DNA of 20,429 nucleotides from a virus. The notes under the pieces were generated by a model. That model was not told the DNA's origin, ran no database searches, and worked only from the letters and a program-made list of their open reading frames with translations. The first letter of the stretch is position 1, and every line of letters begins with the position of its first letter. The translations under genes and the position numbers were made by a program. The stretch covers positions 1 to 20,429 of the IMG/VR virus record IMGVR_UViG_3300047323_000242, one strand, 5' to 3'. Of the stretch, positions 945 through 19,081 are shown piece by piece.

Positions 945-962
945 TAAGTCAATACTGACTTA
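945..962. promoter_or_regulatory. 18-bp palindrome, copy 1 (operator-like)
   Basis: TAAGTCAATACTGACTTA consists of 7-bp arms TAAGTCA/TGACTTA around a 4-bp centre. It lies 5 bases downstream of the stop of the major tail protein gene and just before an intrinsic terminator. The flanking hexamers are poor as a promoter in the geometry seen at copies 3 and 5. This copy may therefore act as a binding site only. Confidence 0.8.
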
Positions 963-967
963 TTATA

Positions 968-1831
968 TTAGACCGCCGAACCGTCGCCGACGTAGAACAG
1001 ACGCTTGGTCACGCTGTCCGGATAGGCGTTGAAGTCGACCGGGAACAGGCGCTCCTGGTCGAGCTTGAACGAGAACTGCATCGCGCCGGGGGTGTTCGCC
1101 AGCGGAATGACGAAGTCGTCCGAGTGGTCTTCGTCGTCGTTCGCGATCGGATGCAAGACCAGGGTCTTGGCCGAGGCGAGCAGCGAGATGCCGATGCCGT
1201 TCGGGACGTCGACGCGGACCTTGGTCGCGTTGGCGCCGCCGGCCAGGGTCGCGCCGGACACGGTGCAGTTCGCCGGGGTCACGAAGGTCTTGGCGAGCGT
1301 GTAGGCGTTCGCCCAGGTGCCCACGGTGTCCGCGGTGATGGTCACGACGCCGGCATTGGCGCTGGCCGAGATGTTCACGACGCGGTCGTCGATCGAGGCA
1401 TTGATCGCGGCCGCAAGGGTCGCGGCGCAGATCGTGAAGGTCGCGCCGATCGCCATGTCGCTGCTGCTGACCGGCACCGTCTTATACGTGAAGTCCTTGC
1501 CGTTGACCGTGACCTTGTCGCCGTCGACCGGAACCGCGGTCAGAAGCGTGACCGTGCCGGTGGCCTTGGTGCCGCCGGTCGCAACCTTGGTCGCGCCGGG
1601 CATGATCTGCACCAGGTTGTCCAGGGTCGTTTCCGCCAGCGGAACCTTGGCCGAGCAGGTGCGGCCCATGATGTATTCGTTGATCTCGGACTGGCCGAAC
1701 TGGTCGACCATGACCTTCTTGGTCTGGGTGGCAACCGTGACTTCGACGCCGCCCTGGGTATAGCCCAGGTCAACGCCGCCGAAGATCACCGAGCACACGC
1801 CCAGCTTAACGTTTTGGGTATTCGACGGCAT
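968..1831 (-). CDS. Major tail (tube) protein with inserted surface domain
   Basis: The protein has 287 residues. I chose the ATG at 1831 (MPSNTQNVKLG), which has AAAGGA about 10 bases upstream. A TTG six codons earlier lies inside a hairpin and is unlikely. The ends (residues 1-100 and about 201-287) form a tail-tube-like beta domain, with GGVDLGYTQGGVEV near 18-31. Residues about 101-200 look like an insertion of the type common in phage structural proteins: GDKVTVNGKDFTYK, then AATLAAAINAS, then GVVTITADTVGT and ATLAGGA. Tube subunits stack into the tail shaft. The gene lies between the lysozyme and the tail chaperone, the usual place for the major tail protein in siphophages. It is flanked on both sides by copies of the 18-bp palindrome, so it may form its own transcription unit. 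Confidence 0.82.
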   Translation of the reverse strand: MPSNTQNVKLGVCSVIFGGVDLGYTQGGVEVTVATQTKKVMVDQFGQSEINEYIMGRTCSAKVPLAETTLDNLVQIMPGATKVATGGTKATGTVTLLTAVPVDGDKVTVNGKDFTYKTVPVSSSDMAIGATFTICAATLAAAINASIDDRVVNISASANAGVVTITADTVGTWANAYTLAKTFVTPANCTVSGATLAGGANATKVRVDVPNGIGISLLASAKTLVLHPIANDDEDHSDDFVIPLANTPGAMQFSFKLDQERLFPVDFNAYPDSVTKRLFYVGDGSAV

Positions 1832-1846
1832 GGATCCGATCCTTTG

Positions 1847-1892
1847 CAAAATGACCGCAGAAACTGATGGGCTCTATTCTACGGTCATTTTG
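1847..1892 (-). terminator. Inverted repeat upstream of major tail protein gene
   Basis: CAAAATGACCG (1847-1857) pairs with CGGTCATTTTG (1882-1892), and the stem extends to about 14 bp with one mismatch around an 18-base loop. It lies between the lysozyme stop plus palindrome copy 2 and the Shine-Dalgarno of the major tail gene. It could be a terminator or attenuator, or an mRNA structure protecting the tail transcript. The downstream T tract is short, so terminator activity is uncertain. Confidence 0.5.
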
Positions 1893-1901
1893 TTGCGCAT
1901 A

Positions 1902-1919
1902 CAAGTCAACACTGACTTA
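1902..1919. promoter_or_regulatory. 18-bp palindrome, copy 2 (operator-like)
   Basis: CAAGTCAACACTGACTTA matches the consensus with one arm mismatch. It lies 5 bases beyond the stop of the lysozyme gene and 10 bases before the inverted repeat at 1847-1892. This is the same order (stop, palindrome, hairpin, next gene) as at copy 1. Confidence 0.78.
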
Positions 1920-1924
1920 TATTA

Positions 1925-2557
1925 TTACGCAGCGAGCTGCGCCAGGCCCTTTTCGAACAACTGAGCCTCGACTTCGCGCCGCTTGACCAGGCCGTTGGTC
2001 CAGAGCCGTTTCATCGATCGCAGCTCGGCCGGGATCTTCTCCGGCTGGCCGGCCTCGAGGTGCTTGCGAATGGCCAGCATTTCCTTGCGGCGGTTCGAGC
2101 CGGGCGCGTCGATGAGCTGGGTGCCGCGGTTGAAGATCAGCGACCACAGCGAGCCGGCGCAGTAGGGGCCGAGCGCCTCGATGCCCGGATAGGTCTTCTC
2201 CAGCTTCTTCATCCAGTTCGGGATCTCGACCTGCTCGAATTCTGCGAGCGCGGCGTCCCAGGGCACGACGACGCTGGAGAGCAGGCCGGAGCGGACCAGC
2301 GTGTGGGCGCGCTCGCCCTTGAGGCCGACGGCCTGGTGAAGGACCGAGATTGCGGTTGCCGGCAGATACGGGCCCCAATCGTGCTCGAGATCGGCGTGGG
2401 TGGTGTAGCCGAGGTCGACGCCGATGCCGATCGTGGCGCCGGAATCGCCGGTCGGCCAGGTCGGCTTCTGATATTTGGCCTTGTAGAGCGCAACGGAGGA
2501 GACCTCCTGTTCGATCACCATGTTCTCGGCTTCAATGCAGATCAGATCGGACGCCAT
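1925..2557 (-). CDS. T4-type/pesticin-like lysozyme (muramidase)
   Basis: The protein has 210 residues. The ATG at 2557 follows AGGAAAAGAG. The N-terminal third carries a muramidase signature: a glutamate in QEVSS (E18), GDSGATIGIG (residues 37-46, including D38 and T42) and VDLG. The TIGIG segment matches the active-site strand of T4 lysozyme, whose catalytic triad is Glu-Asp-Thr. Later motifs (SLIFNRGTQL near 138-147, RRKEMLAIRKHL, and LRSMKRLW...GLVKRREVEAQLF) match the C-terminal half of pesticin-like lysozymes found in alphaproteobacterial proteins. It would cleave the glycan strand of peptidoglycan. No signal peptide or membrane segment is visible. Its place between the tail terminator and the tail tube suggests a virion-borne lysozyme or an endolysin in an unusual position. 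The catalytic residues are assigned by eye. Confidence 0.72.
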   Translation of the reverse strand: MASDLICIEAENMVIEQEVSSVALYKAKYQKPTWPTGDSGATIGIGVDLGYTTHADLEHDWGPYLPATAISVLHQAVGLKGERAHTLVRSGLLSSVVVPWDAALAEFEQVEIPNWMKKLEKTYPGIEALGPYCAGSLWSLIFNRGTQLIDAPGSNRRKEMLAIRKHLEAGQPEKIPAELRSMKRLWTNGLVKRREVEAQLFEKGLAQLAA

Positions 2558-2569
2558 TACTCTTTTCCT

Positions 2570-2971
2570 TTATCGGGGTTCAACGTAGGAGGTGACGAAA
2601 TTGAGCGACCACTCCAGGACGTTCGCCGGCGTCCAGGGGTAAACGATGGGCAATTGCGCCAGGCAGATGTAGTTGACCTGCATCTGAAGCTTGCCGTCGG
2701 CGTCGTTGAAGATCTGCTTGCCCATCTCCAGCGCCTTGCCGACCGCATCGGATTTCGTTTTGCCCTCGGCATGCGTTCCCGCGCGCACGATCGCCTGGAG
2801 GCGCGAACGGTAATAACCGGGCAGACCGGGATCGACCGGGGTGCCGGAGAGCGGATCTTTCAGCAGAATACCCTGCTTGACCTCGGCGGGCATCGAATGG
2901 ACGTAGATGTCTTCTCCGATCGTGCCGAGACCGGCGTCCTGAAGAAGCTGGGCGAGGATTTCGAGTTTCAT
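2570..2971 (-). CDS. Tail terminator / minor capsid-like tail completion protein
   Basis: The protein has 133 residues. The ATG at 2971 overlaps the stop of the upstream gene (ATGA arrangement), showing translational coupling. The fold suggested is that of phage tail terminators: an N-terminal helix (KLEILAQLLQDAGLG), an alpha/beta core (YYRSRLQAIVRAGTHAEGKTKSDAVGKALEMGKQIF) and a last strand pair (QVNYICLAQLPIVYPWT...LEWSLNFVTSYVEPR). The gene order gp10-like, this gene, (lysozyme), major tail protein is the usual one for the tail terminator, a ring protein that stops tube growth and docks the tail to the head. It is similar in style to the minor capsid protein family of Gram-positive phages, but the assignment is mainly positional. 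Confidence 0.6.
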   Translation of the reverse strand: MKLEILAQLLQDAGLGTIGEDIYVHSMPAEVKQGILLKDPLSGTPVDPGLPGYYRSRLQAIVRAGTHAEGKTKSDAVGKALEMGKQIFNDADGKLQMQVNYICLAQLPIVYPWTPANVLEWSLNFVTSYVEPR

Positions 2972-3417
2972 TTCAGCACCGCCAATTCGCGCAGGATGGC
3001 TTCGGTCATTTGCTTGATGATCTTGGGCATCTGGTCGTCGACCGCGCGCTCCAGGAACTTGCCGCCGACGTAGCGGCCGGGATTGGCCGCGCGCTTGGCG
3101 AGCGTGCCCTTGCCGGGGTTCATGCCCTCGTAGTTCTCGTGGATCAGCATGGCGTAGCGATCGACGTCGACGCCGCGCACCTCGCCGCCGACCACGATGT
3201 CGATCTTCAGCCGGCCACGGTCCTCGTAGGACTTCTCCTTGTGGATGGCGTCCTCGAGATTGTGTTTGTCGACCGGAGCGTTGAGCGCCGCTTCCTTGAC
3301 GATCTTGTCGGCGCCGCGATCCATGACCTTGCGGCCCTGCTTGGGCACGCGCCCGGCGAGCTCTTTCATCAGACCGGCGAGCTCGTCGCAGCCGTATACC
3401 TTCAACCCTGCTTTCAC
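2968..3417 (-). CDS. HK97 gp10-like tail completion protein
   Basis: The protein has 149 residues. It starts with GTG at 3417, and the GTGA overlaps the preceding stop, so it is coupled to the upstream gene with no separate Shine-Dalgarno. The layout is that of the HK97 gp10 family: an N-terminal amphipathic helix (ELAGLMKELAGRVPKQGRKVMDRGADKIVKEAA), the family-like APVDKHNLEDAI turn at about 47-58, a beta core (LKIDIVVGGEVRGVDVDRYAMLIHENYEG) and a C-terminal helix containing FLERAVDDQMPKI. Proteins of this family act at the head-tail joint or as tail completion factors. Its neighbours, a head-closure-like protein before and a tail terminator-like protein after, agree with that role. Confidence 0.78.
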   Translation of the reverse strand: MKAGLKVYGCDELAGLMKELAGRVPKQGRKVMDRGADKIVKEAALNAPVDKHNLEDAIHKEKSYEDRGRLKIDIVVGGEVRGVDVDRYAMLIHENYEGMNPGKGTLAKRAANPGRYVGGKFLERAVDDQMPKIIKQMTEAILRELAVLK

Positions 3418-3755
3418 GGCGCGATGTCGAAATCGACCTCCCTGTGGTCGAGGACGCCATGGACCGAAAAGCGCTGCTGCACCGCGATCACGCGCAGCGA
3501 CAGACCGGCGATCGTGAAGGTGTCGTCCTTGCCGATCACGACGTTGGCGGGAAACAGGATCTTGACGGTCGCGGTGGTTTCCTCCGCCGCGCCGCGGCTC
3601 GCCGACGAGTCAGCGCGCACCGGGGTCTTGGCGACCTGGTCCAGATTGTCGACGATGGCGCAGGGAACGGGGATAGCCGGATAGAAGGTCGCCTCGCCGT
3701 AGACATTGCGGCCGAGCCGGCGGGTGAGCATGCCCTTGGCGTTCGGGATGAACAT
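3414..3755 (-). CDS. Head-closure (stopper)-like connector protein
   Basis: The protein has 113 residues from an ATG at 3755 (MFIPNAKGML), overlapping the upstream stop by one base. It is a small beta-rich protein. The first half (GEATFYPAIPVPCAIVDNLD) and the second half (TVKILFPANVVIGKDDTFTIAGLSLRVIAVQQRF) fit the small beta-barrel fold of head-closure/stopper proteins such as SPP1 gp16. A probable loop rich in A, S, E and T at about 48-62 would be the flexible arm that gates the channel. The position between the 253-aa minor head protein and the gp10-like protein supports a neck role. No motif is diagnostic. Confidence 0.55.
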   Translation of the reverse strand: MFIPNAKGMLTRRLGRNVYGEATFYPAIPVPCAIVDNLDQVAKTPVRADSSASRGAAEETTATVKILFPANVVIGKDDTFTIAGLSLRVIAVQQRFSVHGVLDHREVDFDIAP

Positions 3756-4516
3756 CAGGCATACCTCGCCAGGATCGCGTTGGCGTTCGGGTGGAAGGTC
3801 TGGTCGCGAATGTCGGCGAGCGTCGGCAGCTCGGTGGTGTCGACCATGGAGATCTCGAGGCCATGCGTCGCCGCGGTCGGGTCGGTATGCCGGACGCGCG
3901 CGGTGTCGACGCCGGCGTCTGCCAGGGTCATGAGCACCACGTCGTTGTAGAGCGAGAGCAGATTGTGCCGCCAGATCGTGCGGACGTAGCCCTGAGCCGG
4001 CCATTTGGCGTATCTGCGATCGGTGAAGCCGAACTTGACGTCGGTGTTGATCGCGATCCGGTGCTGGATCAACGCGGTGCGCAGCGGCAGGCGCTGGGCG
4101 GCGGCTGCGAGCGTCACGCCCAAAATCGTCTGCTGAAGCGTCTTCTTCAGCGTCGCGATGTCGCGCTCGATCTGAATCGACAACTCGCTCGTGAGATGCG
4201 CGATAAACGCGCTGACGTGCTCGTCTACTGCGTCCGGGATCTCGTCGCTGTCTGTGACGCTCAATTCGCTGCGCGTCGCTGAGAGCGCTTGCTCTGCGAC
4301 GGCGATCATGGCGTCCTGGATCTCGATCGCCTCGGCGGCGAGATACCGGCGGGCCATGGCGTAGGCCTCGTCCGTGATCTCGCGCAGCAGCACCGGCGCG
4401 CCGAAGCGCGGGTCATCGAGCGCGCGGTTGTAGAGCGCCTTCCAGCCCTCGATGAGCATGGTGTAGCGGGTCGCCGCGGCCGCAGCCATCGTGGTCATGA
4501 GCTGGGTTGCGATCAT
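3755..4516 (-). CDS. Putative minor head / morphogenesis protein
   Basis: The protein has 253 residues. The ATG at 4516 overlaps the stop of the upstream gene (ATGA). The first two thirds are strongly helical (residues 1-140, including ITDEAYAMARRYLAAEAIEIQDAMIAVAEQAL and an alanine-rich stretch at 134-140). The C-terminal third (about 155-253) is mixed and ends DQTFHPNANAILARY. The FHPNA ending is reminiscent of the HPNCRC tail of MuF-type minor head proteins, but the usual cysteines are missing, so the relationship is only suggestive. It lies in a run of head-completion genes and is probably a virion component. I would not name it more precisely. Confidence 0.45.
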   Translation of the reverse strand: MIATQLMTTMAAAAATRYTMLIEGWKALYNRALDDPRFGAPVLLREITDEAYAMARRYLAAEAIEIQDAMIAVAEQALSATRSELSVTDSDEIPDAVDEHVSAFIAHLTSELSIQIERDIATLKKTLQQTILGVTLAAAAQRLPLRTALIQHRIAINTDVKFGFTDRRYAKWPAQGYVRTIWRHNLLSLYNDVVLMTLADAGVDTARVRHTDPTAATHGLEISMVDTTELPTLADIRDQTFHPNANAILARYA

Positions 4517-5304
4517 GAGCGGGTGACGCTGATCCGGGTGTTGAGGAACTGGGCCAGCGCATTCATGGCGTCGCGGCTCACGGCGTCGTCGAGCGGCCGC
4601 ACGCCGCTCTTGAACATCAGCGAGCTCTCGCCGATCTTCTCGGAGAACACCCCTGCCCGCCGGCGATCGGCCATCGGGTCGGAGTTGAGCAGCGCGTTGG
4701 CCTGGATCACCTGGGCGCGGTTGAGGGCGTCCTTGAAGTAGTCCGGATAGATGGTCCAGATGTCCGGGGTCATCAGCGGCCACATGCGCGGGGTCAGGTG
4801 CGACTGGTAGCGCGGCGCAATGCGGTTCTGAAGATCCAGGACTTCGGGCCAGGGAATGAAGAAGTTGAGCAGCGTGATTCGGCGGAATGCCTCGATCAGC
4901 GCCGTGGTCTGGTCATCCTTGGTGGCGCCCATCCACGCGATCAGGTTCGGGATGCTGCTGGACACGTAGAGCGCGTTGGCGCGGGTCTGGAAGGTGTTGA
5001 CCAGGAACTGGAGCTTCACGGTCGGCTGGACCGCAAAGATCTCCTCCTGGACGAACACCTCGCCGCCGGCGACCGTGATGAACAGCTCGATCGAATAGCC
5101 GCCAGGGGTCGAGATGAGCCCGTTCGGAATGGAAATGTCGGTCGAGGTCCCGGTCAGGGTCGCAATCGCCGTGAGCGGGACCACGTCCTCGCCCGCGCTA
5201 TCCTTGACGGCATAGGCAAGTGCGACCGGCGTGACCGGACTGCCGTCGTTGTCGAGGAAAGGAACCTCGACAACAGCATTCGTTCCGACCGGGAAGGTCT
5301 GCAT
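4513..5304 (-). CDS. Head-tail adaptor with N-terminal Ig-like domain
   Basis: The protein has 263 residues. The ATG at 5304 overlaps the preceding stop by one base. Residues 1-95 look like an immunoglobulin-type beta sandwich (VVEVPFLDNDGSPVTP, then AYAVKDSAG, then PGGYSIELFITVAGGE). Residues about 150-263 are helical and resemble phage head-tail adaptors that bind the portal ring: DYFKDALNRAQVIQANALL, then RRRAGVFSEKIGESSLMF, then DAMNALAQFLNTRI. The SEKIGESS stretch resembles the segment seen in adaptor proteins before a final helix. The two-domain arrangement is unusual, since most adaptors are about 100-170 residues. The Ig-like part may decorate the neck or contact the tail. Domain calls are by eye. 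Confidence 0.55.
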   Translation of the reverse strand: MQTFPVGTNAVVEVPFLDNDGSPVTPVALAYAVKDSAGEDVVPLTAIATLTGTSTDISIPNGLISTPGGYSIELFITVAGGEVFVQEEIFAVQPTVKLQFLVNTFQTRANALYVSSSIPNLIAWMGATKDDQTTALIEAFRRITLLNFFIPWPEVLDLQNRIAPRYQSHLTPRMWPLMTPDIWTIYPDYFKDALNRAQVIQANALLNSDPMADRRRAGVFSEKIGESSLMFKSGVRPLDDAVSRDAMNALAQFLNTRISVTRS

Positions 5305-5990
5305 CAGCCCTGCTCCCCTTCGCCGGGCAGCTCGTTCTTCGGCGGCTCGATCTTGACGTGGATCGGCTCGCCGTTGGCGCCAACGGCGTTCGGGGTCTCG
5401 TCAGTGACGAGCACGCGGGCCTTCGAGAGCATTTCGGCCTCTTCAGCCATGCGCGCGGCCATCGCCGCATCGAGGGCGGCGGCGCGCGAGGCGCGCTCGT
5501 CGTTCTCGCGTTGCGCCTTGGCCTGGATGAAGTTGTTCTGGGCCTTGACGACCAGGCTGATCAGGCCGGGGATCGAGCGGTGCTTGACGTTCCAGGGTGC
5601 AGCCAGCTTGCGCAGGCCATCGATACCCTCGAGATCGGCGACCGCGGTGAGCTGCTCCTCGGTGAAGAACTCGCGGGTCGGCGCCTTGCCGGCTTCCTGA
5701 CACACGGTCAGCATTTCGGCCGCCTTGGCCTCCTCGGTCTGGCGCTCCATGAGCGTGCCGACGGTCGCCTCGACCGAACGACGGCTCGCGATACGCGCGG
5801 CCGCCCCGCCCTGCCCCAGCTCGTCGCCGTCGGCATTGGAGATGGTCGCGGTCACAAGCGCGCAGATCCGGTCGGCGATGTTGCGCGGGATCGGCACCGT
5901 GGAGACACCGTTCAGGAACGGGTAGCCGACGTAATCGCCGGAGAAAGATTCCCAGCCGGACTGGGTGATGGTGACGCGAAAGAAGTCCAA
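5304..5990 (-). CDS. Conserved-looking structural/head protein of unknown function
   Basis: The protein has 228 residues and starts at an ATG at 5990. The N-terminal ~45 residues (VTITQSGWESFSGDYVGYPFLNGVSTVPIPRNIADRI) form a small beta module that I associate with virion proteins containing the phrase 'F-x-G-V-S'. A region at about 75-130 is helical, and residues about 145-192 form a charged, alanine-rich probable coiled coil. The C-terminus is proline- and glutamate-rich and likely disordered. There is no catalytic motif, signal peptide or membrane segment. It sits between glutaredoxin and the adaptor gene in the head-completion block, so a head or neck accessory role is likely but unproved. 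Confidence 0.5.
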   Translation of the reverse strand: MDFFRVTITQSGWESFSGDYVGYPFLNGVSTVPIPRNIADRICALVTATISNADGDELGQGGAAARIASRRSVEATVGTLMERQTEEAKAAEMLTVCQEAGKAPTREFFTEEQLTAVADLEGIDGLRKLAAPWNVKHRSIPGLISLVVKAQNNFIQAKAQRENDERASRAAALDAAMAARMAEEAEMLSKARVLVTDETPNAVGANGEPIHVKIEPPKNELPGEGEQG

Positions 5991-5992
5991 GA

Positions 5993-6253
5993 TTAGCCTC
6001 CGAAAAGGATCTGCTGAACGACCGGAAGGGCGTTCTTGAAGTGCTCGAAGCCGCCGATCCGGTGCGCTCCGATGAAGATTTGCGGGACGGTTTCGGGCTT
6101 ACGGCCAAGCCGGTCCTCGAGCTCCGCCTTGAGCACCAGGTTGCTGCCGAGGTCGTGGTAGACGAACGGCAGCTTGTGCTTCTGACAGAGAGCGACGGCC
6201 GCCGCGCAGAAGCGGCAGTCGTCGCGGCCGTAGATTTCGACCGTCTTGCTCAT
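5993..6253 (-). CDS. Glutaredoxin
   Basis: The protein has 86 residues, the normal size for a single-domain glutaredoxin. The ATG at 6253 overlaps the stop of the ParA-like gene (ATGA), so the two are co-translated. The active site is C13-R-F-C16 after the first strand and turn (VEIYGRDD). The cis-proline loop TVPQIFIG (P57) and the glycine pair in HRIGGFEHF complete the thioredoxin fold. It would reduce disulfides using glutathione. In phages this usually supports ribonucleotide reductase or keeps proteins reduced. No reductase gene is present here, and sitting inside the head operon is odd. Confidence 0.9.
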   Translation of the reverse strand: MSKTVEIYGRDDCRFCAAAVALCQKHKLPFVYHDLGSNLVLKAELEDRLGRKPETVPQIFIGAHRIGGFEHFKNALPVVQQILFGG

Positions 6254-6924
6254 TGGCCGAGCTTCAGGACCGAGAGCGCGCCAAGCACGCCCTTGAGCCA
6301 GTTGCCAACCTTGCCCTTGACGACGAAGGACGCGTATTCGCGCGCGATGTCGGCGAACGGCTTGGCCGCCTGCTCGACGTGCTCGGCCACGGTCTCGTCC
6401 AGCTTGGGCACGTTGATGACGGCTTCAGCCAGGCCGAGGGCCTTCTGGGCATCTTCGCTGTCCCAGCCGAAATAGGCGGTGTCGTTGATGTGGTTGGTGA
6501 CGATGAAGTAGCGCGAGCCCTTGATTGCGCCGGCGGTGTCCACGATCTCCTGAAACGAGGCGACCGAGGAGCCGAGGACATGCAGCACGATGACGTCGAG
6601 CTTGCCGTCGCGGACAGCCTCGAGCATGCCGATGTCACCGAGCAGCTTCAGTGTGGGCGAGAGCTGGCGCGCGGCCAGGTCGATCACCGTGACCTTCGAG
6701 CCGGTCAGATTGTCGAACACTGCCATCTGACCGTCGGACTTCTCGAGGTCGACGACCTGGGCATCGGGGAAGAAGCGCTTGAGATTGCCCTTGGGCGTCT
6801 CCGCGTCGAAGGCACGATATTCCAGACCCGAATTGCGGAGGTGATCGAGAACGATCCGGGTGACGGTGGTCTTGCCAACGCCGCCCTTATCGGCGCCGAC
6901 GATGACAACGGTGGGTTTTGACAT
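6250..6924 (-). CDS. ParA/MinD-like P-loop ATPase with deviant Walker A
   Basis: The protein has 224 residues. I chose the ATG at 6924 (MSKPTVVIVG) because a TTG six codons upstream lies inside a hairpin. The deviant Walker A KGGVGKTT lies at 13-20 with the two lysines (K13, K18) of the ParA/MinD/SIMIBI class. VTVIDLAARQL (about 73-83) is the probable switch II/Walker B region. The usual DxDPQ is replaced by FDAETPKGN at about 39-47, so the family is divergent and closer to plasmid StbB/TraL-like ATPases than to chromosomal ParA. It follows the major capsid gene and overlaps glutaredoxin. Possible roles are DNA partition (if the element is a phage-plasmid) or an ATP-driven positioning function in assembly. 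The biochemistry is secure, but the role is not. Confidence 0.75.
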   Translation of the reverse strand: MSKPTVVIVGADKGGVGKTTVTRIVLDHLRNSGLEYRAFDAETPKGNLKRFFPDAQVVDLEKSDGQMAVFDNLTGSKVTVIDLAARQLSPTLKLLGDIGMLEAVRDGKLDVIVLHVLGSSVASFQEIVDTAGAIKGSRYFIVTNHINDTAYFGWDSEDAQKALGLAEAVINVPKLDETVAEHVEQAAKPFADIAREYASFVVKGKVGNWLKGVLGALSVLKLGQ

Positions 6925-6943
6925 GGGTAATCCAGACAGCAAG

Positions 6944-6970
6944 AGGGGCGGAGTGATGAACTCCGCCCCT
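6944..6970 (-). terminator. Perfect 11-bp hairpin after major capsid gene
   Basis: AGGGGCGGAGT (6944-6954), a 5-base loop and ACTCCGCCCCT (6960-6970) form a perfect stem. On the minus strand it follows the capsid stop and palindrome copy 3. The T tract after it is poor, so it may be a weak terminator or an mRNA end-protecting stem. The promoter predicted at 6969-6997 would begin transcription inside this stem. Confidence 0.6.
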
Positions 6971-6997
6971 TATAAGTCAGAACTGACTTACAATCAA
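6969..6997 (-). promoter_or_regulatory. Sigma70-like promoter with the palindrome in its spacer
   Basis: On the minus strand, TTGATT (6997-6992) and TATAAG (6974-6969) are separated by exactly 17 bases, and the spacer is filled by palindrome copy 3. This would start transcription near 6962, giving a ~38-base leader for the ParA-like and glutaredoxin genes. A protein bound to the palindrome would cover both hexamers, so simple repression is the natural reading. Confidence 0.65.
6973..6990. promoter_or_regulatory. 18-bp palindrome, copy 3 (operator in promoter)
   Basis: TAAGTCAGAACTGACTTA is a perfect copy with 8-bp arms. It lies 9 bases beyond the stop of the major capsid gene and inside the spacer of the promoter for the ParA-like gene. 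Confidence 0.88.
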
Positions 6998-6999
6998 GC

Positions 7000-7910: not shown

Positions 7911-7985
7911 CTTGGAAGACGCCGGGGAATTCGTAAGTCAGTATTGACTGACAATAGAATACCCCGGCGTTGAGTAACTTCCAAG
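7911..7985. repeat. Nested inverted repeat enclosing palindrome copy 4, upstream of capsid gene
   Basis: CTTGGAAG (7911-7918) pairs with CTTCCAAG (7978-7985). ACGCCGGGG (7919-7927) pairs with CCCCGGCGT (7962-7970). ATTC (7929-7932) pairs with GAAT (7957-7960). A 7-base bulge (7971-7977) and one mismatch interrupt the stem. The loop is palindrome copy 4, which can itself fold. The outer arm covers part of the capsid Shine-Dalgarno (plus-strand CTCCTT at 7908-7913). As RNA this could terminate read-through from the scaffold gene or hide the capsid ribosome site. Confidence 0.75.
7934..7951. promoter_or_regulatory. 18-bp palindrome, copy 4 (operator-like)
   Basis: TAAGTCAGTATTGACTGA has one mismatch in the right arm. 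It lies between the scaffold and capsid genes, in the loop of a larger inverted repeat. The hexamers in the positions used at copies 3 and 5 are TCTATT and TACGAA on the minus strand, which would be a weak promoter at best. Confidence 0.82.
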
Positions 7986-7988
7986 AAG

Positions 7989-8012
7989 AAAAGTAAGTTA
8001 GAGCTTACTTTT
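7989..8012. terminator. Hairpin terminator after scaffold gene
   Basis: AAAAGTAAG/CTTACTTTT forms a 9-bp stem around a 6-base loop. On the minus strand it overlaps the scaffold stop codon by one base and is followed by TTCTTCTT. On the plus strand it is followed by TTATTT. It is probably a bidirectional intrinsic terminator. The arms resemble a decayed palindrome of the 18-bp family (TAAG...CTTA). Confidence 0.6.
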
Positions 8013-10776: not shown

Positions 10777-10805
10777 AATGTATGTCAGAACTGACTTACA
10801 ATCAA
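10777..10805 (-). promoter_or_regulatory. Sigma70-like promoter with the palindrome in its spacer (portal)
   Basis: On the minus strand, TTGATT (10805-10800) and TACATT (10782-10777) are separated by 17 bases occupied by palindrome copy 5. The predicted start near 10770 gives a very short leader for the portal/scaffold genes. The geometry is identical to that at 6969-6997. Confidence 0.6.
10781..10798. promoter_or_regulatory. 18-bp palindrome, copy 5 (operator in promoter)
   Basis: TATGTCAGAACTGACTTA matches the consensus with one mismatch in the outer left arm. It lies 9 bases beyond the large terminase stop and upstream of the portal gene. The flank ACAATCAA is shared with copy 3. Confidence 0.85.
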
Positions 10806-12758: not shown

Positions 12759-12776
12759 CCTGTCAGGACTGACTTT
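12759..12776. promoter_or_regulatory. 18-bp palindrome, copy 6 (operator-like, at small terminase start)
   Basis: CCTGTCAGGACTGACTTT keeps the inner arms GTCAG/CTGAC but has lost the outer TAA/TTA pairs. It ends 5 bases before the small terminase ATG, so a bound protein could block ribosome or polymerase access. Confidence 0.65.
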
Positions 12777-12861: not shown

Positions 12862-12864
12862 CGG

Positions 12865-13128: not shown

Positions 13129-14023
13129 GCAGCCGCTCCGTCGGCTTCTGGGCATCGAAGGCCGTCAGCGGCAGTTGCTGCGGGACTGGGCGCCCTTTGT
13201 CGGGGTTCACGAACACGCCATACATCGGCGAGGCTAGCGTGATCTGCTGGATGCTCTTGATGATGGTCTCGGCGCTCATGGCGTCGACCCTGCCCTGACC
13301 CTTGTCGCGGTTGTTGCCGGTCTTCTCCAGGGCCGAGTGCCGGTAATAGTGGTCCTTGCAGAGCTGGAGCAGCGCCTCGCGCGCCTCGGGCGCCAGCGCA
13401 TTCAGCTCGTCGACGATCGCCTGAAAGTCCTGCGGGCTCGAGCGGAAGTTCTTGCGGAAGAACTTCATGCCGATCTCGTATTTGTTGGCGTTGAGCGGCC
13501 GCACGAAGCGAAAGCCGGCCTTCTGCCCGAACAAGTTGAACTTGGACATGGAGGACTGGATCTCCATGTAGGTCTTGCCCTCCATCCGGGCGACCAGGTT
13601 CATCATGCGGTAGCCGCAGCCGATGCCGCGATACATGGTGTCGACCACGAAGCGGCTGATGACCCGGAAATTCGAGTTCACGAAGGCGTAGCGATAGGTG
13701 TTGGTGTTCTTGGTCTCCCTGCCCGGCTTCATGTTCGGGAAGACCAGGTGCCGTTCCTTGAGCAGCCCCTTGGGGTTTGCCGTGACCAGGACGCCGATCG
13801 TCTCGCCGTAGAGCGTCAGCTTCCAGAACCGGGGTCCGATCGGGAGGTTCTCGGCCTTGTAGTGCAGGTCGTGCAGCAGCTCCCAATCTGACTTGTCGCC
13901 CCGCTCGACGATCATGTCGTCAAGCAGCGAGAAACGGGGCGCTGGTGCGTCCGCGCGCTCGATCAGCGTCACGAGTGCATCGGGACGTTCGAACGCACCA
14001 GCGGTCGTCTCTGCGAACGGCAT
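13121..14023 (-). CDS. GNAT-fold protein, COG2401 acetyltransferase-half-like
   Basis: The protein has 300 residues. The ATG at 14023 overlaps the previous stop by one base. Residues about 45-178 carry a GNAT fold: LHDLHYKAE (50-58), strand ETIGVLV (74-80), VISRFVVDTMYRGIGCGYRMM (121-141, with the R/QxxGxG acyl-CoA loop at 132-137) and SKFNLFGQKAGFRFV (160-174). The run 'ISR-VV---YRGIG-G' then 'M-KFN-F--KAGF' is what I associate with the acetyltransferase half of COG2401, an ABC ATPase fused to a predicted acetyltransferase. Here the ATPase half is the separate gene at 14598-15284. Residues 200-300 are an extra helical domain with a basic, Q- and P-containing end. The substrate is unknown. 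A nucleic-acid or base-modifying role is possible by analogy with Mu Mom, itself a GNAT relative. Confidence 0.7.
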   Translation of the reverse strand: MPFAETTAGAFERPDALVTLIERADAPAPRFSLLDDMIVERGDKSDWELLHDLHYKAENLPIGPRFWKLTLYGETIGVLVTANPKGLLKERHLVFPNMKPGRETKNTNTYRYAFVNSNFRVISRFVVDTMYRGIGCGYRMMNLVARMEGKTYMEIQSSMSKFNLFGQKAGFRFVRPLNANKYEIGMKFFRKNFRSSPQDFQAIVDELNALAPEAREALLQLCKDHYYRHSALEKTGNNRDKGQGRVDAMSAETIIKSIQQITLASPMYGVFVNPDKGRPVPQQLPLTAFDAQKPTERLHV

Positions 14024-14403
14024 TATTCGGCCGCCTTATCCTTTGCCGCGACGATCGAGGCCAGCGCGTTGTCGATGTGCTGGCTGAGCTTCGAGGTGTC
14101 GGCCTCGACGTTGACCTTGAGCGTCGAGACGGTCTGAACGATCGCCGGCCATTCGGCGTAGCGGCCGGCCTTCTTGTGTGCCTTGAGCTTCATCTCGTCC
14201 TCGGTGCCGTCGAGCAGGTCGACCGAGGTATACGACTTGATGTCGCCGTTCGGCATGAACACGATCAGATTGACCATGCGATCGCTCCAGACGTGGACGA
14301 TCAGCGCCGAGAACGGCAGATTGCCGTGAGACTTGAATACCGGATCCTTGTCGGGTGCCGGCGGCGTGAAGTTGACGAAGCGGTTGCGAGCGGGGGCTGT
14401 CAT
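14023..14403 (-). CDS. Small phage protein of unknown function
   Basis: The protein has 126 residues. The ATG at 14403 follows AAGGAG with 6-base spacing, one of the better ribosome sites here. Residues 1-60 form a compact beta region (RNRFVNFTPP, then FSALIVHVWSDRMVNLIVFMPNGDIKSYTSVDL), and residues 63-126 are helical (MKLKAHKKAGRYAEWPAIVQTVS, then DTSKLSQHIDNALASIV). Many phages have a small protein with this 'ALIV...V-L-V---G---S-TSV' pattern just upstream of tail or accessory genes, but its function is not known to me. No signal peptide or membrane segment is present. Confidence 0.6.
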   Translation of the reverse strand: MTAPARNRFVNFTPPAPDKDPVFKSHGNLPFSALIVHVWSDRMVNLIVFMPNGDIKSYTSVDLLDGTEDEMKLKAHKKAGRYAEWPAIVQTVSTLKVNVEADTSKLSQHIDNALASIVAAKDKAAE

Positions 14404-14413
14404 GGGGTCTCCT

Positions 14414-14614
14414 TTACTGACAAGCGTGTCCAGCGCCCTGGCCCGACAGGTCGGATGAGCGCATGAAGTCGTAGCGGCCGGCGCCGTCGCAGCGCGGGTC
14501 GCGTTTCGGGGCGGCCTCTTTGCAGCCGGACAGGACCGCGATCGTCGCCAGAAGAATGACGAAGATGACGATGGTCCGGTCGAGGACGGGGTGCGGTTTA
14601 CGGACGCGGGGCAT
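14414..14614 (-). CDS. Small lipoprotein with lipobox
   Basis: The protein has 66 residues from the ATG at 14614. A basic N-terminus (PRVRKPHP) is followed by a hydrophobic segment at about 13-28 (TIVIFVILLATIAVL) and a lipobox LSGC with the lipidated cysteine at 31. The remaining ~35 residues carry three more cysteines and charged residues. It starts inside the last codons of the ABC ATPase gene (17-base overlap). A membrane-anchored phage lipoprotein could be a superinfection-exclusion or outer-spanin-like factor, but there is no partner inner spanin nearby. Only the lipoprotein nature is supported. Confidence 0.65.
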   Translation of the reverse strand: MPRVRKPHPVLDRTIVIFVILLATIAVLSGCKEAAPKRDPRCDGAGRYDFMRSSDLSGQGAGHACQ

Positions 14615-15284
14615 TGGGAAACCGCATTTTGCAATCAGCGAGGGACTTGTCGTAATCACTCTCGATCTCGACACGCTGGCGAAAGCGCTTGGTGATCGTC
14701 AGCGACGGGCCGAGCTCGTCCTTCAGATCGGTGTGGGTGGTGGCGACGATCAGCGTCTTGCCGAGCCGGCGGGCGACCTTCTGCATGTTGAAGGCGACGC
14801 ACTTGGCGGTGACGCGGTCGAGCACGGCGCCGAACTCGTCGGCGACCCAGACGTCGGCCTGCTGCGCCATCAGCATGGCCAGCTTCAGCCGGTAGCGCTG
14901 GCCGTCGGAGAGCTCTTGCGGCTTGCGAATGTAGATCCAGGCATCCGAGATCCCGGCCTTGGCCAGCAGATCCGCGGCCTCGGTGGTGGTGTTGCCGACG
15001 ATCTCGATCACCGGCGCGTCGGGCAGCTCGAGCCTGTTCAGGTCAGCCACCGCCAGCTTTTCATTTGCCATTTGCCGGGCAAGGTCTCGGAGAATGAGGG
15101 ACTTGCCGGAGCCGGACTGGCCGGTGACGTAGACGACGTCGCCCTGGCGGACCTCGAGCTCGAGGTTGTCATAGATGACGAATTCCTTGTTCGAGAGGCC
15201 CAGGCCAAAACCCTCGGCGACCTCAAGCACGCGGGGAGTTCGTTCCACAGACGAATTAAAGCGGATGTCGATGGCATACTTCAC
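14598..15284 (-). CDS. ABC-type ATPase, COG2401 ATPase-half-like (not a transporter)
   Basis: The protein has 228 residues. It starts with GTG at 15284 after AGGAGG, with the GTGA overlapping the upstream stop. Walker A is GQSGSGKS (55-62), the ABC signature is LSDGQ (125-129), Walker B is VWVADE (145-150), the D-loop lies at 154-157 and the H-loop is H184. No membrane domain is present. The phrases around the motifs (TPRVLEVAEGFGLG, LSDGQRYRLKLAMLM, ADEFGAVLDRVTAK, NMQKVARRLGKTLIVATTHTDL) match the style of COG2401, in which this ATPase is fused to a GNAT domain. Two genes downstream lies a GNAT protein, so the pair is probably a split version. All catalytic motifs are intact. The role is unknown, and nucleic-acid-linked action is inferred from the company of ParB-like proteins and terminase. 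Confidence 0.8.
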   Translation of the reverse strand: MKYAIDIRFNSSVERTPRVLEVAEGFGLGLSNKEFVIYDNLELEVRQGDVVYVTGQSGSGKSLILRDLARQMANEKLAVADLNRLELPDAPVIEIVGNTTTEAADLLAKAGISDAWIYIRKPQELSDGQRYRLKLAMLMAQQADVWVADEFGAVLDRVTAKCVAFNMQKVARRLGKTLIVATTHTDLKDELGPSLTITKRFRQRVEIESDYDKSLADCKMRFPNAPRP

Positions 15285-15604
15285 TCCTCGTCCTCCTCAA
15301 GATTATCCATCTCGAGGTTGCCCATCGCGAGCGCCTCGATCTGCACCTGGGCCATTCGATTGGCGAGCGCGAGCACTGCGAAATCTCGGGCATCGTGGTG
15401 GCCGGGCCCGGTGATGGAGCACGTTGGGTAGCCGTTCACGACCGCGCCGACCGCGACGCCGGCGAGCGCGCCCTCCTTGGCGAGACCCAGGAAGTATTCG
15501 AGCAGCTTGACGCTGTTCTCGCAGATTTCGACCTTGGTCTCTTCGGCGCCGGGGAGCGGATCGCCCGGCTTGCGGCCGAACGCGTTGATGATCTGCGCGT
15601 TCAT
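15281..15604 (-). CDS. Small acidic protein of unknown function
   Basis: The protein has 107 residues. The ATG at 15604 overlaps the ParB-like stop (ATGA), and its own stop overlaps the start of the ABC ATPase, so it is locked in this operon. It has a mixed alpha/beta core (VEICENSVKLLEYFLGLAKEGALAGVAVGAVVNG) and a polar C-terminus ending in a run of acidic residues. The GPGHHDARD segment near 67-75 carries two histidines. I do not recognise the family. Its constant overlap with both neighbours suggests it belongs to the same functional module. Confidence 0.6.
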   Translation of the reverse strand: MNAQIINAFGRKPGDPLPGAEETKVEICENSVKLLEYFLGLAKEGALAGVAVGAVVNGYPTCSITGPGHHDARDFAVLALANRMAQVQIEALAMGNLEMDNLEEDEE

Positions 15605-16314
15605 GCCGCCAGCAGCCCGTTGTCGTTGATGTAGGCCACCAGCGCCTCGGCGCCCTTCAGGCCGGTCTCACTCTCGATGCGAGCCATGAACGAGCGCACC
15701 GTGCGCGACTGCTCGATGGTGACGCGCTTGAAGCCCAACGCATCGCCGACGGGCGCCGCGGACTGGTCGATCTCCTTGGCTTTCTCGACGTTCTCGGCCT
15801 TCTGGGTCTCGACGGCCTGGTTGATGTCCTCGACGAACATGGAGTCGTCGACGGAGCCGAAATCGGCCGTCAGCTTGCTCAGTTCCGCGTCGTCGAAGCC
15901 GAGCCCGTCGAGCTCGATGTCGGCATCCTTGAGAACCAGCAGCTCGGCCTTCAGCAGCTCGGTGTCGTAGTCGTTGGAGACCGTCTGGTTGTCGGCGATC
16001 CGCAGCGCCATCGCTTCGGCCCTGGTGAGGTCGGTGCGGACGATGACGTTGACGTGGGTCCAGCTCAGCGAGGTCGCAGCGAGCCAGCGGCCGTGACCGG
16101 TGATGATAGTGTCCGGAACCGGATTGGTCTCGCCGTCGGCCCAGACAGCGGGCTCGACCTGAATGGTGTTCGCGATGCCGTATTTCGCGATCGACTTGGC
16201 AAGCTTGTCGATCTGCGCCTGCGGATGCTTCTTGGAATTCGTCGGCGACGGCTTGAGCCGGCCGATCTCCCGGATCTCGGTCGGCAGCTTGGAGACATCA
16301 ATCATCTTGGTCAT
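15601..16314 (-). CDS. ParB/Srx-like N-terminal domain protein, second copy
   Basis: The protein has 237 residues. The ATG at 16314 follows AGGA. Residues about 15-130 are a ParB N-terminal domain: LKPSPTNSKKHPQAQIDKLAKSI, then TIITGHGRWLAA (69-80, the box that holds the nucleotide in ParB relatives) and ALRIADNQTVSND (103-115). A C-terminal domain at about 195-237 (FKRVTIEQSRTVRSFMARIESETGLKGAEALVAYI) resembles that of the first ParB-like gene at 16483-17157, so the two are diverged paralogs. There is no typical ParB HTH, so centromere binding is not evident. Proteins with this domain are common beside phage terminases and DNA methylases, often as nucleases or NTP-dependent DNA-associated factors. 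Confidence 0.82.
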   Translation of the reverse strand: MTKMIDVSKLPTEIREIGRLKPSPTNSKKHPQAQIDKLAKSIAKYGIANTIQVEPAVWADGETNPVPDTIITGHGRWLAATSLSWTHVNVIVRTDLTRAEAMALRIADNQTVSNDYDTELLKAELLVLKDADIELDGLGFDDAELSKLTADFGSVDDSMFVEDINQAVETQKAENVEKAKEIDQSAAPVGDALGFKRVTIEQSRTVRSFMARIESETGLKGAEALVAYINDNGLLAA

Positions 16315-16483
16315 TGTTCATCCTGGCGTAAATTCTCATCAGCTCGTCGGCAGTGGGGTCGCGGTCGCGGATCCTCTCATCGAAGAATTCGCCCGACCCG
16401 CAGGGCAGGCAGCGCCCGGAGACGCGGGTGCGGTTGAAGAATCGGCAATCGACGCATTCGGGAAATCGCGGCTTGACGACCAT
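16298..16483 (-). CDS. Tiny zinc-ribbon protein
   Basis: The protein has 61 residues from the ATG at 16483, overlapping the preceding ParB-like stop by one base (a GTG one codon earlier is also possible). Two CxxC pairs (C10-V-D-C13 and C25-L-P-C28) make a compact zinc ribbon. The rest is a charged helix (ADELMRIYARMNNDQDD). It lies between the two ParB-like genes and overlaps the second, so it is co-expressed and may bridge them or DNA. Its function is unknown. Confidence 0.6.
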   Translation of the reverse strand: MVVKPRFPECVDCRFFNRTRVSGRCLPCGSGEFFDERIRDRDPTADELMRIYARMNNDQDD

Positions 16484-17157
16484 CACTCGGTCGCCGCGCT
16501 GAAGAGTTGGTGGACCAGCGCGTCGCCGGCGTTGGTCAGCTCGTCGGCAGCGGTGTAGCCCTGGCGCTTCTGGACCTTGGCGAGCAGCTCGGCGACGCGC
16601 TCGGAATCGGCGATCGCGACCTTGAAGCGCATGATGGTGTGGGTCTTGGTCGCCTTCTCGGGCTTTGGATCTGCGGCCTGGTCCTTTGCGTCTTCCGTGT
16701 AACTTTCCGGAAGATCCAGCTCGTCGAGCGCTATATCGACGCTTGAGAAAATCGAGTTCAGATCGCTCTCGGTGTAGGGAAGAACCGCCTGCAATCCTTC
16801 GATGTCGCCAATTTCCTCGAGCAGCTTCGCCAATTCGATCGTGTCATCCTGACCGTAGCGGGCGTTGTCGGCGAGCGTGATCCGCTTGGCCATGTCGTCG
16901 TCGATCACCCCGACGCTGAAGACGGGGACCTCGGCCAGGCCCTCCTCCTTCGCCGAGTCCCAGCGGTGCTCGCCCCCGAGGATCTCGTAGTGGGTGTCGG
17001 TGTCCGCGTCGTAGAGCTCGCGGACGACGATCGGTTTGAACAGCCCGAACTGACGGATGCTGGCGCGCAGCTTCGCCTCGTTGTCGGGGCTGACGTGGTT
17101 CGAGTTCCAGACGTTTGGCCTCAGATCGAGGATCGAGGCCGAAAATTGCTTAGACAC
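16483..17157 (-). CDS. ParB/Srx-like N-terminal domain protein, first copy
   Basis: The protein has 224 residues. It starts with GTG at 17157, with an AGGA about 11 bases upstream. The ParB N-terminal domain spans about 10-115: LRPNVWNSNHVSPDNEAKLRASI, then FGLFKPIVVRE (38-48), YEILGGEHRWDSA (57-69) and LADNARYGQDD (95-105). The C-terminal domain at about 172-224 (HTIMRFKVAIADSERVAELLAKVQ...LTNAGDALVHQLF) matches the second copy in outline. It is the first gene of the minus-strand operon. Palindrome copy 7 and the divergent helicase gene lie just upstream. As with its paralog, no DNA-binding HTH is seen. Its role is probably in DNA handling tied to the ABC/GNAT genes downstream. Confidence 0.82.
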   Translation of the reverse strand: MSKQFSASILDLRPNVWNSNHVSPDNEAKLRASIRQFGLFKPIVVRELYDADTDTHYEILGGEHRWDSAKEEGLAEVPVFSVGVIDDDMAKRITLADNARYGQDDTIELAKLLEEIGDIEGLQAVLPYTESDLNSIFSSVDIALDELDLPESYTEDAKDQAADPKPEKATKTHTIMRFKVAIADSERVAELLAKVQKRQGYTAADELTNAGDALVHQLFSAATE

Positions 17158-17173
17158 TTGGTTGCGGTTCCTG

Positions 17174-17191
17174 TAAGTCAGAACTGACTTA
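17174..17191. promoter_or_regulatory. 18-bp palindrome, copy 7 (divergent operator)
   Basis: TAAGTCAGAACTGACTTA is a perfect copy. It sits alone in the 65-base gap between the minus-strand ParB-like operon and the plus-strand helicase, so one bound protein could control both directions. Possible hexamers with the spacing seen at copies 3 and 5 are weaker here (TACCAT as a plus-strand -10). Confidence 0.88.
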
Positions 17192-17222
17192 CCATAGTTT
17201 CTAAAGAAGGCAAGCGGATTAA

Positions 17223-18815
17223 ATGAAACCCGTTCTCACCCTGGTCGCCAACGCGACCATCGCGAAGATCGTCAACGCCGACGATGCAGTGAAGGACATC
17301 ATCGCGACCTCCCTGTCCTACCGGGTCGAGGGCTATGAGCACATGACCGCCTTCACCTCGGGCGGCTGGGACGGCCGGTCGAGCTTCTTCTCGCGCCGGA
17401 CCTGCACCTTCCCGGCCGGCTTCTTTCACATGATCTTTCACGAGCTGACGCGGAAAGGCTACCAGGTCCGCGTCGGCCGCAAGCCGTTTGCAGCCCCGCT
17501 CGGTCCGGAGAACCCGATCGTCGACACGTTCGGCAACGACGATCCGCGCTACGACTTCCAGCTCAAGGCGCTGCGCCAGATCGAAAAGCACGGCCGCGGA
17601 ATCATTCAGGTCGCGACCGGCGGCGGCAAGTCGAAGATCGCCAAGCTGATCACCGCGCGCTACCGGCGCCCGACCCTGTTCCTCACCACGCGCGGCGTGC
17701 TGATGTATCAGATGCAGAAGGCCTTCCTGAAGGATTGCGGCTTCAACACCGGGATCATCGGGGACGGCGTCTGGAGCCCGACCAAGGGCATCAATTGCGG
17801 CATGGTGCAGACCTTCGTCGCTCAGCTCAAGGAGCCGAGCCTCCAGGACGAGCGCGGCGCGCTGATCGGCGCCAACATCAAAAAGAGCCTCGGACTGACC
17901 AAGGACCAGATCGATGTGCTGGCCCAGAAGAACTTCGACAGCAAGGTCCGGGCGCGCGCGCGGCTGATCAAGCTCCTGGAGATGTTCGAGGTCGTGATCG
18001 GCGAGGAGGCGCACGAGGCCGGCGGCAATTCCTATTTCGAGATCCTGCAATACTGCAAGAACGCCACGATCCGCGTCGCCCTGACCGCGACCCCGTTCAT
18101 GCGCTCGGCCGAAGAAGACAATATGCGGCTGATGGCTGCATTCGGCCCGATTCTGATCAAGGTCTCCGAGGAGCTGCTGATCAAGCGCGGGGTCCTGGCC
18201 AAGCCCTACTTCCTCTATGCGAGCCCGCCGCCGGCGAAGCTGCTGCGCCGGACCTCGCCCTGGCAGCGCGCGCGCGAGATCGGCATCACCACCTCCCTGC
18301 CCCGCAACACCGCGATCGTGAACCTGGCCGTCAAGGCCAAGGCGCACGGTCTGCCGGTGCTGATTCTGGTCGCGGCCAAGAAGCACGGCCCGATCCTGGT
18401 CGAGATGCTGAAGGCCAAGGGCATCCGGGCGGTCCAGATCCAGGGCGAGAACGACCAGGCGGAACGCGAGCGCGCGCTGGAGGCGCTTGCCACGGGCGAG
18501 ATCGACGCGCTGATCGGAACCACCATCGTCGACGTCGGTGTCGACGTGCCCTGCATCGGCATGACCATCCTGGCCGGCGGCGGCAAGGGTGAGATCGCGC
18601 TCCGGCAGCGGATCGGCCGCGGCCTGCGCGCCAAGAAGGTCGGCCCCAACATCACCTTCATCGTCGACTTCACCGACGAGCTCAACTCCACCCTTCGCGA
18701 CCACGCGCGCACCCGCCGCGCGATCGTCGAGCAGACGCCCGGCTTCGCCGAGGGCATCGTCGCGGCCAATGACGATCTCCCGTGGCATCTGTTTTCTGCG
18801 CGAAAAGCTGCATAA
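17223..18815 (+). CDS. UvsW-like SF2 DNA helicase
   Basis: The protein has 530 residues. The ATG at 17223 follows AGAAGG. The first ~105 residues form an N-terminal domain like that of UvsW (AFTSGGWDGRSSFFSRRTCTF). Helicase motifs follow in order: Q-like YDFQLKALRQI, Walker A ATGGGKS (131-137), motif II GEEAHE (260-265), motif III ALTATPF (286-292), motif V TTIVDVGVDVP (433-443) and motif VI QRIGRGLR (462-469). UvsW/RecG-class enzymes remodel branched DNA and restart replication. Motif II has E where the first D of DEAH is usual, which may tune ATPase activity. The gene stands opposite the ParB-like operon and starts the replication/nucleotide side of the window. Confidence 0.9.
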   Translation: MKPVLTLVANATIAKIVNADDAVKDIIATSLSYRVEGYEHMTAFTSGGWDGRSSFFSRRTCTFPAGFFHMIFHELTRKGYQVRVGRKPFAAPLGPENPIVDTFGNDDPRYDFQLKALRQIEKHGRGIIQVATGGGKSKIAKLITARYRRPTLFLTTRGVLMYQMQKAFLKDCGFNTGIIGDGVWSPTKGINCGMVQTFVAQLKEPSLQDERGALIGANIKKSLGLTKDQIDVLAQKNFDSKVRARARLIKLLEMFEVVIGEEAHEAGGNSYFEILQYCKNATIRVALTATPFMRSAEEDNMRLMAAFGPILIKVSEELLIKRGVLAKPYFLYASPPPAKLLRRTSPWQRAREIGITTSLPRNTAIVNLAVKAKAHGLPVLILVAAKKHGPILVEMLKAKGIRAVQIQGENDQAERERALEALATGEIDALIGTTIVDVGVDVPCIGMTILAGGGKGEIALRQRIGRGLRAKKVGPNITFIVDFTDELNSTLRDHARTRRAIVEQTPGFAEGIVAANDDLPWHLFSARKAA

Positions 18816-18824
18816 TCCAGCTAT

Positions 18825-19016
18825 ATGTTGTGTATGAGAGAGAAAGTTGACCCAATTCGGCTGTTCGATGCCAAGGCCAGGCCCCTGTCTTCCTATGAGG
18901 CCATGGAGCGACGCATCAAGCTGCTCGAGCGCTGGAACGACCGCCTTCTTCGAATGCTGCGGCACAAGCAGCGTCTCGAGGAACCGGCAACCAAACCGGC
19001 AAGCATCCTCAACTAA
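18825..19016 (+). CDS. Small helical protein of unknown function
   Basis: The protein has 63 residues from ATG 18825. An internal ATG at 18834 (MREKVDP) is an equally possible start, and neither has a clear Shine-Dalgarno. Codon use from 18846 on is the GC-rich phage type, which supports a real gene. Residues about 24-50 (YEAMERRIKLLERWNDRLLRMLRHKQRLEE) form a probable single helix or coiled coil with basic charge. It sits 9 bases after the helicase and just before an intrinsic terminator, so it is likely the last gene of that transcript. Its function is unknown. Confidence 0.55.
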   Translation: MLCMREKVDPIRLFDAKARPLSSYEAMERRIKLLERWNDRLLRMLRHKQRLEEPATKPASILN

Positions 19017-19020
19017 GTAA

Positions 19021-19044
19021 GCCGCCTCAATAGCTTGGGGCGGC
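19021..19044 (+). terminator. Intrinsic-type hairpin ending the helicase unit
   Basis: GCCGCCTCAA (19021-19030) pairs with TTGGGGCGGC (19035-19044) through a 4-base loop, including one U-G pair. ATTTCC follows. It lies just after the small helical protein gene, so it most likely ends the helicase transcript. The T tract is short. Confidence 0.6.
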
Positions 19045-19063
19045 ATTTCCGTGTCTACTGTCA

Positions 19064-19081
19064 ACAGTCAGGGCTGACTTA
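19064..19081. promoter_or_regulatory. 18-bp palindrome, copy 8 (operator-like, at kinase start)
   Basis: ACAGTCAGGGCTGACTTA keeps inner arms AGTCAG/CTGACT. It ends 2 bases before the ATG of the kinase gene at 19084. A protein bound here would cover the start codon region, and no ordinary ribosome site is visible between. Confidence 0.75.

Follow-up and report, generated by a model that had tools for sequence, protein, structure and literature searches.

The window analysed here is the whole 20,429-base stretch of viral DNA in IMG/VR record IMGVR_UViG_3300047323_000242 (positions 1 to 20,429), and the question it raises is what is done by an 18-bp palindrome that recurs between its genes, and which protein reads it. 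The original prediction, made from the letters of the window, had listed eight dispersed copies at the boundaries of gene units and had proposed a phage-wide regulon giving repression or timing, likened to the stoperators of mycobacteriophage L5. We conclude, with a probability of roughly 80%, that a single repressor encoded by the phage uses the palindromes as its DNA operators, and that together they form a dispersed-operator lysogeny system.

The fragment comes from a phage kin to the 115-120 kilobase rhizobial phages and to the SSU5-type phage-plasmids. Its genes match 115-120 kilobase Rhizobium phages such as RHph_N1_10, RHEph10 and V1VFA-S, and its TerL matches 974 plasmid records (930 of them over at least 80% of the TerL length), mostly of Klebsiella, Escherichia, Acinetobacter and Enterobacter. 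Also within this wider group are the E. coli phage-plasmid Cyrano and the Salmonella phage SSU5, and the rhizobial relative pLM21S1 has been described as a plasmid-like prophage kin to RHEph10 with a RepC replication system (PMC4447125, PMC5537653). For comparison we used 14 relatives ranging from Rhizobium to Acinetobacter and Klebsiella, in which the SSU5-type gene set of the window (terminase, portal, capsid, tail and helicase) has orthologues; the nearest complete relative of the window phage is the genome here called G002.

Palindromic sites in the window and its relatives

A search of the window for the pattern TAAGTCAG-NN-CTGACTTA with up to 3 mismatches, counted against the 18-mer TAAGTCAGNNCTGACTTA, gave 9 matches, compared with 0 in 100 dinucleotide shuffles. 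All eight sites of the original list are present, seven with 0-2 mismatches and the one at 12759 with 4, while a site at 7994-8011 that the list lacked completes a pair upstream of the capsid gene, which is kept in most relatives. One match, at 20298-20315 (TAAGTCAGCGCTTCATTA), lies close to the end of the fragment; one of its half-sites is strong and the other poor, any gene downstream of it would fall outside the window, and it was left out of the operator count. With this match omitted and site 12759 included, all the sites are intergenic and each lies 2-91 bp 5′ of a start codon. The predicted operators, together with a hairpin beside the first of them, are as follows.

945 to 962: predicted operator, TAAGTCAATACTGACTTA, 1 mismatch; 5′ of the gene in the tail-chaperone region (minus strand), just past the stop of the major tail gene
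895 to 921, minus strand: terminator-like hairpin, 11-bp stem and T-run; between operator 945 and the next gene
1902 to 1919: predicted operator, CAAGTCAACACTGACTTA, 2 mismatches; 5′ of the major tail protein gene (minus strand)
6973 to 6990: predicted operator, 0 mismatches; between the capsid gene and the ParA-like/glutaredoxin operon (minus strand), at the same place in G002 (L281)
7934 to 7951: predicted operator, TAAGTCAGTATTGACTGA, 2 mismatches; 5′ of the major capsid gene (minus strand), the proximal of two sites
7994 to 8011: predicted operator, TAAGTTAGAGCTTACTTT, 3 mismatches; 5′ of the major capsid gene, the weaker, distal member of the pair
10781 to 10798: predicted operator, TATGTCAGAACTGACTTA, 1 mismatch; 5′ of the portal gene (minus strand)
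12759 to 12776: predicted degenerate operator, CCTGTCAGGACTGACTTT, 4 mismatches; 5′ of the TerS-like/helix-turn-helix (HTH) gene and terminase operon (minus strand)
17174 to 17191: predicted operator, 0 mismatches; shared by the divergent ParB-like (minus strand) and helicase (plus strand) genes
19064 to 19081: predicted operator, ACAGTCAGGGCTGACTTA, 2 mismatches; 2 bp 5′ of the P-loop kinase gene (plus strand)

Five of the sites lie within 10 bases of a stop codon, in line with what had been noticed at first, and their description as boundaries of gene units holds, with the correction that they are equally markers of gene starts. Operator 945, which occupies the same place in G002 (L281), has TATAAT immediately upstream on the minus strand.

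The same kind of site was found throughout the relatives. The window's own pattern recurs 23-46 times in complete relatives from IMG/VR, and after fitting one symmetric weight matrix per genome, all 14 genomes of the comparison set were found to carry 27-57 sites, each in its own motif variant, compared with 1-21 sites in Markov-shuffled genomes taken through the same fitting. Markov shuffles were chosen as the control because a reversed palindrome is again a palindrome, which makes a reversed genome invalid. In a de novo search the site was the top or near-top palindrome in most relatives, Acinetobacter included. The half-site reads TAAGTAAG in V1VFA-S, pLM21S1 and R. beringeri, TCAGTCAATA in RHph_N1_10, Y2_11 and Pararhizobium, and TTAGTAAG in Acinetobacter. 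As a check independent of the fitting, 78-95% of the sites are intergenic in the 14 genomes, against about 9-28% expected, so that the outcome named as refuting the proposal, a motif equally frequent inside genes, was not found; and 55-93% lie within 100 bp 5′ of a gene start, as measured with a simple in-house gene caller by which individual distances may be off. In the Klebsiella phage pJN2-26 (L195-L200) we also noted a second palindrome, AAACAANTTGTTT, which forms a separate dispersed motif of 11 copies.

The sites stay with their genes. Among the orthologues of window genes with a site, 79 of 84 also have one, compared with 12 of the 176 orthologues of window genes without a site, and 11 of these 12 exceptions belong to the operon behind the capsid gene, for which the window counterpart is site 6973, 5′ of an inserted gene. 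An operator stands directly 5′ of the major tail gene orthologue in 14/14 genomes, at the helicase gene in 13/13, next to the ParB-like gene in 13/14 and directly upstream of the portal gene in 13/14, and it lies upstream of the orthologues of the P-loop kinase (10/10), capsid (12/14) and TerS (11/12) genes; those of the major tail, helicase and portal genes are kept in alpha- and gammaproteobacterial phages alike, and G002 has the same arrangement of sites as the window. Judged from these orthologues, the positions of the sites are old and have been kept while the sequences diverged. In the relatives nearly all lytic operons are headed by an operator. None of the 10 repC genes, present in 10 of the 14 relatives, has one directly upstream (0/10); parA is not clearly exempt, standing behind an operator-bearing operon in 9 of 11 genomes. 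The proposal of a phage-wide regulon of dispersed repressor-type sites is thus supported by site counts, intergenic placement and conserved positions, and also by the overlap with promoter starts described below.

As to other genes of the window, it shows one ParA-like and two ParB-like genes. The ParA-like ATPase and glutaredoxin genes (5993-6924, minus strand) lie between the capsid and tail genes and appear to be served by operator 6973; the ParA-like gene has no orthologue among the 14 genomes. At the tail chaperone position, the overlapping frames 522-935 and 193-888 (minus strand, 193-935) could be a programmed frameshift pair.

The candidate reader

The best candidate for the protein that reads the palindromes, and likely the reader, is an XRE-family regulator of about 130 residues (lambda CI/Cro-type), encoded outside the window fragment. 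A small XRE-family gene adjoins repC and/or cobT in most relatives, and it is flanked by operators, with one located 31-199 bp upstream in 13 of 14 genomes and further ones just downstream in 10 of 14. The regulator of V1VFA-S scores 27.6 bits against HTH_3 (cut-off 23), and the N1_10 regulator scores below the cut-off. When the regulator alignment was run as a profile against PDB sequences, no match was obtained; the structural model of the protein has a CI/Cro-like HTH and matches the P22 c2 repressor-operator complex (root-mean-square deviation 1.9 over 62 residues, Z 8.1), and it also aligns with 434 Cro and lambda CI. One regulator, searched against GTDB genomes, found one locus. The family has an orthologue in Cyrano, CYRAN_45; this gene, annotated as a putative repressor, is transcribed about 10-fold above the prophage background in the lysogen (PMC9928086, Table 1).

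The regulator varies together with its presumed operator. Where operator position 6 is C, residue 30 (start of the recognition helix) is Lys or Arg, and where position 6 is A, it is Asn; in the RHph_N1_10 group, residue 30 is Gln, position 6 is a mixture of C and A, and position 8 is A. Among 131 alignment columns, residue 30 ranks first for predicting position 6 (adjusted eta-squared 0.88 for 30 non-redundant proteins), and 42 of 43 regulators with Lys, Arg or Asn agree with the rule, the Acinetobacter regulator having a one-residue alignment ambiguity at this residue. The regulator of G002 (L245) is of the Lys type, as the TAAGTCAG sites of the window predict, and the window phage presumably has a repressor of its own of the same kind.

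Two neighbouring ParB-like proteins are encoded in the window at 16483-17157 and 15601-16314 (minus strand), and both are kept in 14/14 genomes. That one or both of these bind the sites, which would then be dispersed centromeres for plasmid partition or else the operators of a KorB-like global repressor of the ParB family, is in our estimate improbable, even if it fares best among the alternatives. The 224-residue protein (16483-17157) has a ParB N domain and a model resembling ParB, Noc and the plasmid repressor KorB, which uses dispersed palindromes on RK2; its gene regularly adjoins an operator, as described above, and its whole-protein distances track the operator distances best (0.79, 9 genomes). 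However, genomes with different operator types differ little in its putative helical DNA-binding region, and when columns were compared in the same genomes, none from the ParB-like protein equalled XRE residue 30 as a predictor of operator base 6 (0.68 vs 0.87). Moreover, 30-55 sites at promoter starts are unlike the known parS clusters, and apart from the divergent site that it shares with the helicase gene, the ParB-like gene shows no operator arrangement peculiar to it.

Position of the palindromes at promoters

When the sites of the relatives were oriented by the downstream gene, CTATAA occurred 73 times in the coding orientation versus 10 times reversed, and GCTATA 82 versus 13 times. These -10-like words stand mostly 7-11 bases before the palindrome, so that the palindrome covers the presumed transcription start. 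This promoter assignment relies on the biased placement of CTATAA in the relatives, because fewer canonical sigma-70 promoters were predicted in the window than in shuffles. Sites of late genes follow a stop codon, sometimes after the word AGCTTG (10 versus 0 reversed), and more often have a hairpin behind them. The late operators often sit between the stop codon with AGCTTG and a terminator-like hairpin, and the hairpin separates the operator from the next gene; across the whole window, terminator-like hairpins are no commoner than in shuffles.

At early and middle operator promoters of the relatives (for example V1VFA-S L134 and L153; G004 L135-L140), a GCAATCC- or CxxTCCC-like word was also observed, with its CC about 13 nucleotides before CGCTATAA, which is too close for a canonical -35 box. 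A phage sigma-like factor adjoining cobS is a candidate reader of this word. The presence of such a factor, the unusual upstream element and the promoter-proximal location of the sites would all suit a palindrome that is itself part of a phage-specific promoter, or an activator site for timing, for example for the phage-encoded sigma factor. We hold this to be slightly less probable still than binding by ParB-like proteins, as the palindrome lies at or 3′ of the presumed start, where repressors and not activators bind, serves both the early (CTATAA) and the late gene classes, has a two-fold symmetry unlike promoter elements, and also flanks the regulator gene.

The bases of the two half-sites do not covary as pairs. 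At positions 4 and 15 in three genomes, the combinations G-C, A-T, G-T and A-C were counted 23, 22, 35 and 27 times, respectively, and in 420 oriented sites A-C mismatches occur about as often as G-U. The half-sites thus vary independently, which argues for DNA operators and against RNA hairpins. An RNA hairpin at the start or end of transcripts, working as a terminator, a processing site or a 5′ stabiliser, was therefore rejected as most improbable of all, for although the sites are often just past stop codons and beside other hairpins, and one was flagged as terminator-like, pairing is not selected, the loop would be of 2 nucleotides, and Rfam gave no match for the palindrome.

Proposed lysogeny control and known systems

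From the above patterns we infer the following scheme of control. The XRE protein would bind, presumably as a dimer, to the symmetric 18-mer, each half-site being contacted by one recognition helix. Its operators would head nearly every lytic transcription unit, including those for replication, packaging, capsid, tail and lysis; where an operator overlaps the start just 3′ of the -10 box, as many do, bound repressor would block RNA polymerase, and at late genes it may in addition form a roadblock against read-through. With the phage established as a plasmid prophage, every lytic unit would then be silenced together by the repressor, which would also control its own gene; repC, being without an operator, would stay on, and loss of the repressor would release the whole regulon. 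The presence of operators on lytic operons and their absence from repC fit the need of a plasmid prophage to keep lytic genes off and replication on. In its widest form, which we consider probable with less confidence than the operator assignment itself, one XRE protein would silence essentially the whole lytic programme across the SSU5-type supergroup, from rhizobial to enterobacterial and Acinetobacter plasmids, through 30-55 operators that spare plasmid replication, with a single recognition-helix residue (Lys/Arg, Asn or Gln) largely determining the immunity groups and the operator set shifting in concert.

Several points weigh against this assignment. The repressor gene is not in the window, and its link to the window runs through the relatives. 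The residue-base correlation draws on few independent lineages, with only 3 phylogenetically independent pairs, for which a sign test is not significant, and a disjoint-column test on the 14 genomes is not discriminating, since 1-7% of the columns of most proteins, and 18% of those of the sigma factor, pass it. Judged by whole-protein distances, the XRE protein does not stand out, and the ParB-like protein correlates better. At most late-gene sites no -10 box can be recognised, and terminator-like hairpins follow some of them. Finally, mitomycin C failed to induce the plasmid prophage pLM21S1 (PMC4447125).

With the lambdoid repressors of the XRE family (lambda CI, P22 c2 and 434), the candidate shares the HTH fold in its predicted model and, presumably, the use of one helix per half-site, but theirs are few operators clustered at one switch, unlike the 30-55 genome-wide sites considered here. 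Dispersed palindromic operators also coordinate plasmid promoters in the KorA/KorB system of RK2; RK2 is, however, a conjugative plasmid, and the reader favoured here is of XRE type and not of ParB type. The repressor of the Streptomyces phage phiC31 has dispersed, mostly intergenic palindromic sites (CIRs), but phiC31 is an unrelated phage with fewer sites than here.

In L5 and other cluster A mycobacteriophages, more than 20 dispersed sites in short intergenic regions are recognised by one repressor, and the motif variants diverge with the repressor (PMC6550527, PMC9283540). The likeness to L5 stoperators seen at first is good as a working analogy, as the present sites are likewise many, dispersed and intergenic and would likewise serve a repressor, but it fails on the type of site. 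Those of L5 are 13-mers that lack symmetry and follow the direction of transcription, and the protein that binds them does so as a monomer with two DNA-binding domains (PMC9283540), whereas here the sites are 18-bp palindromes, conserved in both halves and mostly promoter-proximal, and the candidate repressor has one recognisable HTH in its roughly 130 residues. The C1 repressor of P1 controls a plasmid prophage through 22 dispersed operators with an asymmetric 17-bp consensus (PMC8546580); dispersed operators in a plasmid prophage are thus common to both, but the present operator is a symmetric 18-mer of different sequence. The proposed system follows the same working principle as those of L5 and P1 but is a member of neither, because the sites of both are asymmetric.

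In the literature searched, which omits most subscription journals, no description of such an operator system was found for SSU5-type or rhizobial phage-plasmids, and a dispersed-operator lysogeny system is apparently new for this phage group, its principle being known from L5 and P1. Plasmid records with relatives of the window phage number in the hundreds and come from Klebsiella, Escherichia, Acinetobacter, Enterobacter and Rhizobiales; the lysogeny control of these relatives appears to be undescribed. The operator map, the candidate repressor and the predicted specificity residue make immunity, superinfection groups and induction directly testable, and the operators provide a sequence signature by which members of the group may be recognised from fragments. 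With about 40 sites that change specificity together while their positions are kept, these phages would be a good system for the study of co-evolution between a repressor and its regulon.

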